Shown piece after piece: positions 26,259-29,393 of a stretch of DNA of 41,485 bases (position 1 is its first letter; each line of letters starts with the position of its first letter). This stretch comes from an uncultured Gemmiger sp. (lineage in GTDB: Bacteria; Bacillota; Clostridia; Oscillospirales; Ruminococcaceae), in NCBI GenBank assembly GCA_947631565.1, contig CANRLV010000014.1, positions 1 through 41,485 of the forward strand, read 5' to 3'. Position numbers and translations under genes: made by a program. The notes below the pieces were generated by a model that was not told where the DNA came from, searched no databases, and worked only from the letters and a program-made list of their open reading frames with translations.

Positions 26259-28310
26259 ATGACACGCAAAAAATGGCTGCCGCTGGCCCTGCTGGGCGCG
26301 GCCGTGCTGCTGCTGGGCGCGGCGCTGCTCGCCCTGCGCGGCCAGAATGGGGACGCGGCCGACGCCGACGCGCCGATCTGTCCGCTGACAGCGGAAGAGG
26401 TGGACCGCGTGGAATATACCTTTGCGGGCGATACGCTGTGCCTTGTCAAGGATGCGGCCGGCGCCTGGACCCTGACCGACGACCCCGCGCTGCCGCTGGC
26501 CCAGGCCGCCGTGCAGCAGACGGCCGCCGGGTTGGCGGGTCTTGTCCCCACCAGCGCGCTTGGCCCCGGGGCCGACGTGGCCGCCATGGGCTTTGACGAC
26601 CCCACCGCGCAGGTCACGCTGACCGCCGGGGAGAAGAGCTATTCCTTCACCGTCGGCGCCGTCAACGGCATGACCGACAGCTACTACCTGCGCCCGGCGG
26701 GGGAGGAAACGGTGTACACCGTCAGCTCGGTCGATTTCTCCGGTCTGTGCAAGAGCCGCCGTGCCCTGTACGCGGCGCAGACCCTAAACGAGCTGGACGC
26801 CGGCGCCCTGACCGGCATGACGGTGCAAAGCGGCGGCGAAACACTGGACTTTGTGCGCAGCGGGGAGGAATGGCAGCTCAAGGATGACCCCGGCTTTGCG
26901 CTCGACCAGGACCGCGTGCAGCGTATGGCCAACACCGTTTGCGGCATAAAGACCGAATGGACCGTCACCGCGCCCGAGGCCGACGCCGCCTACGGGCTGG
27001 ACGCGCCCAACGCCGCGGTGACGGTGACCGATGGCGGAACGTCCTGGACCGCCCGCTTTGGCGCCGACGCCGGCGACGACAACTGTTATCTGGCCGCCGA
27101 CGATGCCCCCGGCCTGGTGTTTGAGGTGCTGCGCCAGCACCGCGAGGCGTTCGCCTGCACCAAACAGTCACTGGCCGCCGCGGCGGACGAAACGCCGGGA
27201 CCGACGCCCACCCCGGCCCCCGAGACCGACCCCGTGGAGGAACTGATGCAGAGCATGACGACGGAACAAAAGATCGGCCAGCTGTTCTTTGTCCGGCCCG
27301 ACGCGCTGGACGAAACGCTCACGCAGGAGGAGATCGACGACCCCTACGCCGACGGCGTGCGCGCGCTGACCGACGATATGCGCGCCGCTCTGGCCAGGTA
27401 CCCGGTGGGCGGTATCGCGCTGTTCAAAAAGAACATCACCGACCCCGAGCAGCTGCCGGCGTTCCTTGCCGATCTGCAGGCCGCCAGCGCTGTGCCGCTG
27501 TTCCTTGGCATCGACGAGGAGGGCGGCGCCGTCTCGCGCCTTGCCAACCACCCCGAATTCATCACGCCGCAGTACGCGAGCGCGGCCGCGGTGGGGGAGC
27601 AGGGCGAGGCCGCGGCGCGCGAGATGGGCCAGAGCATCGGCGCGTATTTAAAGCAGTACGGCTTCAACGTCGATTTCGCCCCCGTGGCGGACGTGAACTC
27701 CAACCCCGACAACCCGGTCATCGGCACGCGCGCTTTCTCCGACGACGCGCAGCAGGTGGCAACGCTGGCCGCCGCCATGGCCCAAGGGCTGCAGGGCGAG
27801 GGCATCCTGCCGGTGCTCAAGCATTTCCCGGGGCATGGCGACACGGCCGAGGACAGCCATTACGGCCTGGCCACCGTGCACAAGACCCGCGAGGAGCTGG
27901 AAGGCTGCGAGTGGCTGCCCTACGGCTGGGGCACCGAGCCGCCGATCGAACAAGGCAGCTACGCGGTCATGGTCGGGCACCTGGCGGTGCCGGACCTGAC
28001 CGGCGATACCACCACCCCCGCCACCATGAGCGCCGCCATCGTCACCGACATCCTCAAAAAACAGCTCTATGACCCGATCGTCATCACCGATTCGCTCGCC
28101 ATGCAGGCCATCACCGACCAGTACGATGCCGGCACGGCGGCGGTACGGGCGCTGCAGGCCGGCTGCGACGTGCTGCTGATGCCGGCCGGCCTGGCCGAGG
28201 CGTATGAAGGCGTGTTGGCCGCCGTGCAGGACGGCACCATCACCGCCGAACGCCTGGATGCCAGCGTCGAAAAGATTTTGCGCTACAAGGCGCAGTACGG
28301 GATCTTGTAA
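26259..28310 (+). CDS. DUF4340 protein fused to a GH3 beta-N-acetylhexosaminidase domain
   Basis: A 683-residue two-part protein. Residues 5-27 form one membrane anchor, and about 35-305 is a DUF4340 module with two repeats of the EWQLKDD/YGLDAP type, normally a stand-alone fourth gene of Gld-type operons. A linker rich in Pro/Thr (PGPTPTPAPETDP, about 311-323) leads to a family 3 glycoside hydrolase (about 328-683). The GH3 domain has IDEEGG, KHFPGHGDTAEDSH (521-534, the general acid His-Asp region of NagZ-type enzymes) and the nucleophile Asp611 in ITDSLAM. It should be anchored outside and cleave N-acetylhexosamine bonds, perhaps in peptidoglycan or glycans. AAGGAGG precedes the ATG, 15 bp after gldG. 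Confidence 0.93.
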   Translation: MTRKKWLPLALLGAAVLLLGAALLALRGQNGDAADADAPICPLTAEEVDRVEYTFAGDTLCLVKDAAGAWTLTDDPALPLAQAAVQQTAAGLAGLVPTSALGPGADVAAMGFDDPTAQVTLTAGEKSYSFTVGAVNGMTDSYYLRPAGEETVYTVSSVDFSGLCKSRRALYAAQTLNELDAGALTGMTVQSGGETLDFVRSGEEWQLKDDPGFALDQDRVQRMANTVCGIKTEWTVTAPEADAAYGLDAPNAAVTVTDGGTSWTARFGADAGDDNCYLAADDAPGLVFEVLRQHREAFACTKQSLAAAADETPGPTPTPAPETDPVEELMQSMTTEQKIGQLFFVRPDALDETLTQEEIDDPYADGVRALTDDMRAALARYPVGGIALFKKNITDPEQLPAFLADLQAASAVPLFLGIDEEGGAVSRLANHPEFITPQYASAAAVGEQGEAAAREMGQSIGAYLKQYGFNVDFAPVADVNSNPDNPVIGTRAFSDDAQQVATLAAAMAQGLQGEGILPVLKHFPGHGDTAEDSHYGLATVHKTREELEGCEWLPYGWGTEPPIEQGSYAVMVGHLAVPDLTGDTTTPATMSAAIVTDILKKQLYDPIVITDSLAMQAITDQYDAGTAAVRALQAGCDVLLMPAGLAEAYEGVLAAVQDGTITAERLDASVEKILRYKAQYGIL

Positions 28311-28313
28311 AAG

Positions 28314-28362
28314 GCAAAAAACAGGCAAGGGCGCGGCCGATACGGCCGCGCCCCTGCCTGTT
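28314..28362 (-). terminator. 20-bp hairpin terminator between convergent genes
   Basis: Stem 28320-28339 with 28343-28362 (one mismatch), loop ATA. On the minus strand it is followed by TTTTTT. It also ends the plus-strand ABC operon structurally, though without a T-run. Confidence 0.9.
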
Positions 28363-28381
28363 ATGTTCATGGCGTTGGATT

Positions 28382-29335
28382 TTATGCCGCGCGCAGCGGC
28401 TCCTTGGCCGAATGCTCCAGCTTCTGGAATACCCACGGGTACACGGCCAGCAGCACGATGAGCTCCGACCCCATCATGAAGAAATACCCCCAGTTGGAGC
28501 CGATGGCGTGCACGGCGGCGGGGATGACGGTCTTTTCCCACAGGATCAGCACCAGCACGCCGGCGGCGACGCGCAGGCCCTTTTGGGTCGGGCTCACGTC
28601 CATGGTAAAGCGCACGAAGCGCCGTTCCAAAAACCAGCCCACGGTCAGGCCAAAGAACCGCCCCACATCCTTGAAGCCGTCCTTGACCATGCTGTTGGGG
28701 TCCACGACCAGCTTGCCGTCCACATAGTCCATCGGATAGCTCTTGAGCGAGATGTAGGCAAGGAACAGCGCGCTTAAGATCACGCCGGCGATGGGGATGA
28801 GAACCTCGCGCCGGGGGTCGGCGTCGATCCACTCCCACAGACGGCTGGCAAAGATGACCACCAGTATGCACTACGGTATCTTTATCTGGCTGTACGCCTG
28901 CATCTTTTTCTGGGCGCTGGACAAAAAGACCGGCAGCCTGCTGTTCCTGAACGTCGGCCTGGGGCGGTTTTTGATGCAGACGCTCAAACTGACTTTCTGC
29001 GTCTACCGGCCGTGGATCCGCAGCGCCGACATCCTGCCCATCGAGTACCCGAGCGGATACTCCTTCCCCAGCGGGCACAGCGTGACCAGCACCGCCAACT
29101 TCGGCACGCTGGCCCGGCAGTATTACAAAAAGTGCCGGCCGCTGGCCATATTCTTGCTGTTCTGCGCGGCGCTGACCATCTTCTCGCGCAATTTCATCGG
29201 CGCGCACACCCCGCAGGATGTGACCGTGGGCGGCGTGATGTGCAGGTCGCTGATCTGCAAAGCAAGATCATTGAACGCCCCGCCCAGGATATCCTCGCGC
29301 AGGTGCTGCAGCAGCAGCAGGTATTGCAGGTCCAT
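28382..29335 (-). pseudogene. PAP2-superfamily membrane phosphatase split by an internal inversion
   Basis: The minus strand starts at ATG 29335 (AGAGGAGG upstream) with MDLQYLLLLQHLREDILGG and stays in this gene to ISDLH, then loses sense near 29240. The C-terminal part (VVIFASRLWEW onward) is on the minus strand from 28866 to 28382. The middle part lies on the plus strand, 28867-29244. It includes FALDKKTG-like helix loops, CVYRPWIR, PSGYSFPSGHS and FSRNFIGAHTPQD, which are the PAP2 phosphatase motifs. Inverting 28867-29244 gives one frame of 318 codons with both joints in phase. As it stands only a truncated protein of about 70 residues can be made. Substrate class (undecaprenyl or lipid phosphates) is inferred. 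Confidence 0.9.
28867..29244 (+). other. inverted 378-bp segment inside the PAP2 gene
   Basis: Bounded by TGCAC (28867-28871) and its complement GTGCA (29240-29244). Everything inside reads in the opposite direction to the flanks. After inversion the joints read ISDL-HYGIF and GGVMC-ILVVI in frame. No longer inverted repeat and no recombinase gene was found next to it. Confidence 0.88.
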
Positions 29336-29393
29336 ACAGATTACCTCCTCTATGGTGCCATGGTATGGATGACGGACAGAAAACAGACCGTGT

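Follow-up and report, generated by a model that had tools for sequence, protein, structure and literature searches.

A 378-bp inversion within a PAP2 gene of an uncultured Gemmiger sp., probably not a built-in on/off switch

Results

Organization of the PAP2 locus

The window analyzed in this work, that is, the whole stretch of 41,485 nucleotides of a single contig (CANRLV010000014.1, C14) of an uncultured Gemmiger sp., belongs to a draft bin made up of 140 contigs, with a completeness of 89.2% and a contamination of 5.05%. It harbors a gene of the PAP2 superfamily whose two ends lie on the minus strand and whose catalytic middle lies on the plus strand. The 5′ part (29245..29335, minus strand) consists of 30 codons and one base, including the start codon at 29333-29335, and is preceded, seven bases before the start codon, by the sequence AGGAGGT (29343..29349, minus strand), a likely ribosome-binding site. 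The middle part (28867..29244, plus strand) is 378 bp long, embeds both the PSGHS and the GAHTPQD motifs as well as the Pfam PAP2 match, and is bounded by TGCAC at the left joint (28867..28871) and GTGCA at the right joint (29240..29244), both read on the plus strand; these two arms are identical in inverted orientation over 5 bp and are separated by 368 bp. The 3′ part, including the stop codon, occupies 28382..28866 on the minus strand. A hairpin with 20-nt arms (95% complementary) and a 3-nt loop, a possible terminator, lies at 28320..28362 between this end and that of the convergent gene.

The minus strand of 28382-29335, left untouched and translated from the ATG at 29333-29335, runs for 70 codons before a stop. 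The predicted product is therefore about 70 residues long (101 if translation began at an upstream in-frame ATG), and the gene is a pseudogene in this assembly. When 28867-29244 is turned in silico, both joints are in phase and a frame of 954 bp without internal stops is obtained, coding for 317 amino acids. The first-pass annotation of this DNA had placed the inversion at the same coordinates and in the same frame, and its 318 codons are correct if the stop is counted. The inversion that breaks the gene is thus present in the contig, and it is known from the assembled sequence of this one contig.

The protein obtained by turning the middle matches the Pfam PAP2 family (PF01569) with an E value of 4e-18 (65.9 bits), and the plus-strand ORF 28791-29369 alone does so with an E value of 6.3e-17 (62 bits); both scores exceed the curated cut-off of 27.2, which assigns the two sequences to the PAP2 superfamily. 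The domain is significant also in two of the relatives described below (L032 and L034). With the superfamily the gene shares the domain and the stretch carrying PSGHS and GAHTPQD, to which it adds a C-terminal half of about 150 residues without a Pfam family; indeed, the 159-residue C-terminal ORF of the minus strand matched no Pfam family at an E value of 0.001. The relatives L034 and L033 scored far below the cut-offs of the NCBIfam equivalogs for SepP, PgpB, LpxE, and undecaprenyl-diphosphate phosphatase, and the nearest solved chains for L034 were those of LpxE (6ebu) and YodM/PgpB (5jki). Judging from these similarities, the intact members of the family are likely to be membrane phosphatases acting on some lipid phosphate or diphosphate.

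The PAP2 gene lies downstream of a gene on the same strand whose product bears Mg_chelatase and ChlI domains (presumably yifB) and converges with a gene bearing DUF4340 and GH3 domains. The latter is a 683-residue frame (26259-28310, plus strand) in which DUF4340 is fused to a glycosyl hydrolase of family 3, an unusual fusion, and it adjoins ABC-2 and ABC_transp_aux genes. The closest relative harboring the PAP2 gene (G028, see below) is collinear with this DUF4340-GH3 region at 69%, and it has about 2.1 kb of additional sequence between the end of GH3 and the 3′ end of PAP2 (L142 10094-12275, corresponding to 28267-28398 of the window). A search for a conserved neighbor that might point to the function revealed, besides PAP2 itself, no protein cluster occurring in more than seven of the 80 loci plus the window.

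Distribution and orientation of the gene in related genomes

The comparison of the orientation in related genomes, proposed by the first-pass annotation, was carried out on the best 80 of 116 confirmed relatives. In all 80 of them the middle of the gene is not turned, a single strand running across both joints; for L078 and L079, the alignment on that strand is split into pieces by frameshifts. Within this set the closest relative is the locus L032 of another uncultured Gemmiger sp. (CANRCB01, G028), 86% identical, against which the blastn alignment of the window follows a +/-/+ pattern across the gene. On the basis of these comparisons, the form found in the window is derived and the ancestral gene was uninverted. 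A second instance of the inverted form was found neither among the 80 relatives nor among viral contigs searched with one 18-base pattern. It is the homology that makes the arrangement more than a chance occurrence, the 5-bp repeat being weaker evidence when taken alone.

Among 35 genomes of the genus, a close orthologue (86%) occurs only in G028, besides the source genome (G000); a more distant relative (40%) was found in G031, together with two matches that are weaker still, and the matches in G002, G030, and G023 stand at 31-32%. Possible carriers of the gene were also considered and discarded: viral contigs gave no match to the protein patterns or to the one 18-base pattern of the left inverted joint, and no plasmid matched the relative L034. 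Two phage records match the same relative at 30.3% and 31.8% identity.

In the midpoint-rooted tree of 80 proteins, the window protein and 52 rows with "Lapin" in their titles form a single group (support 100/100). These rows (L032-L081, L085, and L088) are 53-86% identical to the window protein, and the other 27, without such titles, are at most 41% identical; a 53rd Lapin row (L083) stands outside the tree. Since Lapin is the French word for rabbit, these bins probably come from the rabbit gut. According to the submitters' labels, the clade includes Oscillospiraceae, Lachnospiraceae, other Clostridia, and Akkermansia, and ten Akkermansia-labelled rows stand beside two labelled Lachnospiraceae (support 100/99), an adjacency in the tree that suggests a transfer. 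The clade may represent a host-linked, horizontally spread gene, or its make-up may stem from a single large data set and from the peptide patterns chosen for the search. One bin labelled Akkermansia (CANQAC01, Lapin-001 bin87) harbors two PAP2 copies of the clade (L060 and L067) on two contigs.

Frameshifts were noticed in the alignments of four of the 80 relatives (L032, L065, L078, and L079), the last three being in or near T runs. They may correspond to pseudogenes and repeated loss, to variation by homopolymer slippage, or to errors in the assembly of the bins.

Residues and repeats at the joints

The protein alignment comprised 79 relatives, L083 (which covers residues 1-187 only) being omitted; its rabbit set has 52 rows with L032 and 51 without it. 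The residues of the turned protein at the joints, H32, M155, and C156, replace a conserved S, L, and G, respectively. Neither H32 nor M155 occurs in any of the 79 relatives, 56 of which have S at column 32; C156 is shared by two of them, G being found there in 58 of 79 and in all 52 of the rabbit set. The codons for H32 and C156 are built from the 5-bp repeat itself. If a column is considered conserved when at least 90% of the 51 rabbit-set rows agree and L032 has the same residue, 126 columns are conserved, and the window departs from them at six (24, 32, 130, 155, 156, and 224). These six include all three conserved columns adjoining the joints (hypergeometric P 6e-5, a post hoc value, the joints being already known). 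Thus, the frame is recovered when the segment is turned back, whereas the expected residues are not. The claim of the first-pass annotation that the ancestral gene was intact agrees with the orientation found in the 80 relatives, but the restored frame cannot be read as a clean copy of that ancestor, since its codons are atypical at both joints.

The repeat was compared in 77 relatives, after leaving out L083 and two more rows lacking one of the two residues. It is perfect in the window only, that is, in none of the 77. In L032 the homologous 5-mers are TGTCC and GGGCA, complementary at four of the five positions, as are those of L043 and L087; in the other 74 relatives at most three positions are complementary. 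A search with 6-bp seeds gave 186 inverted pairs, and the 25 longest of them include no longer or imperfect repeat that links both joints; one of these pairs (I2, 28763-28794 with 29224-29255) overlaps the right joint only. In the turned gene, inverted repeats of 5 bp spaced by 50 bp or more form 580 pairs. Breakpoints placed at random in this gene would show an inverted identity of at least 5 bp with P = 0.0065; therefore, it is likely that microhomology played some role in the inversion.

The state of the gene

Over 310 codons, the window and L032 show 55.3 nonsynonymous and 75.7 synonymous differences. The resulting Ka/Ks ratio of 0.187 implies that, for most of the period after the split from L032, the gene remained under constraint. 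This value and the stop-free turned frame fit a recent loss. The nearest orthologue, L032, is itself frameshifted near codon 6; thus, the loss of the gene seems to be tolerated.

Discussion

What the sequences show is the inversion, the fact that it is derived, the lack of conservation of the repeat, and the atypical codons at the joints. As to the mechanism, we lean, with a confidence that is only modest, towards the idea that an intact PAP2 gene was broken, recently in relation to the split from G028, by one inversion event of about 378 bp that was not programmed, likely through template switching or a similar event based on microhomology; according to this idea, the contig would be correctly assembled and the inverted state would be fixed. 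The polymerase would have switched template between two short imperfect inverted repeats supplied by the conserved codons of the gene itself (TGTCC and GGGCA in G028), an event that would invert the spacer and leave both arms identical. Both arms differ from the form found in L032, so that at least one substitution is needed besides the event itself; for example, a prior change of one base, in the right arm only, followed by the copying of this arm into both joints would yield the observed bases.

A study on template switching in yeast (PMC8604942) reports that such events homogenize the arms of imperfect repeats and invert spacers, and that one of them began from 5-bp arms. The likeness to the case described here is that the repeat is imperfect in the relatives (TGTCC/GGGCA in L032) and perfect in the derived form (TGCAC/GTGCA in the window), that the spacer is inverted, and that the neighboring residues are changed at the joints. 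However, the spacer inversions described in that study all have final arms longer than 9 bp and spacers that measure a few bp (spacers up to 70 bp were admitted by the screen), whereas in our case the arms are 5 bp long and the spacer is 368 bp, which counts against this route; the system studied there is yeast and not a bacterium. Among the literature titles searched, none dealt with a bacterial intragenic inversion with 5-bp repeats.

The same arrangement might also be an assembly artefact. In that case the organism would have an intact gene, and the inverted order would be due to chimeric reads or to the backward joining of a short contig, perhaps with faulty bases at its ends. The contig does belong to a draft bin with the number of contigs and the contamination reported above, the odd bases at both joints could be errors at contig ends, and the inverted form is absent from every other record searched. 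We nevertheless regard this possibility as rather unlikely, since common assemblers require overlaps far above 5 bp and about 50 kb of pairwise alignment, including about 24 kb of this contig, revealed no further small inversion, although this is a small sample. The survey was based on the window and on 20 stretches of 20 kb from each of two genomes, the source genome and G028; the pairs of stretches with at least 800 bp aligned add up to a main-strand total of 49,751 bp, part of which may have been counted twice, and the sole piece on the opposite strand was the inversion reported here. On this small part of the genome, the idea of a bad library with many inversions was discarded; the assembly thus does not look full of inverted chimeras.

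According to the first-pass annotation, the inversion might instead be a reversible switch, with the window in the OFF state. An intragenic inverton in which a recombinase flips the catalytic middle, turning the phosphatase on and off, would account for the two in-phase joints and the open turned frame, and the identity of the arms would be maintained by repeated exchange. Such invertons within genes already form a known class (Chanin et al. 2024, as cited in the review PMC11868660), and our case resembles them in the inversion within a coding sequence and in the phase of the joints; it differs in that a single orientation was found and that the repeat is not conserved and is only 5 bp long. 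Known invertons have longer repeats, and a recombination site would be expected to exceed chance length and to be kept in relatives; here, the repeat is imperfect in all 77 relatives compared. In the ON form, unusual residues would occupy three joint positions, such as a C for the G of the whole rabbit set. Matches to recombinase families, which the first-pass annotation suggested looking for, do occur elsewhere in the genome (15 to PF00589 and 5 to PF00239), but all of them are on other contigs, and neither of these two families matched this one. The 954-bp region has a single match in its own genome; hence no further contig showing the opposite orientation emerged, and none of the best 80 of 116 relatives is inverted. 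A switch would be expected to have its site in relatives and an enzyme-like ON form, and neither is seen; the reading is therefore little supported, and we consider such an inverton improbable. Highly improbable, in our view, is a version in which the 5-bp core would be the site of action: the catalytic middle of a lipid-phosphate phosphatase would be flipped by a recombinase or by recurrent template switching, and the concerted change of both arms, away from the imperfect form of the relatives, would be the trace of repeated exchange. Thus, what lies in the window is probably not a built-in on/off switch. The internal inversion breaking a PAP2 gene, as first annotated, stands, and the alternatives that the same annotation had named, i.e., a fixed mutation or an assembly artefact, are likelier than the switch.

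If the arrangement is real, it would represent a clean natural inversion of a few hundred bp between 5-bp repeats in which the bases at the joints were also changed, and it would be far larger than the template-switch inversions reported in PMC8604942. In addition, the case warns against inferring a programmed switch from an in-phase reverted frame alone; relatives should be consulted for the repeat and for the residues at the joints.
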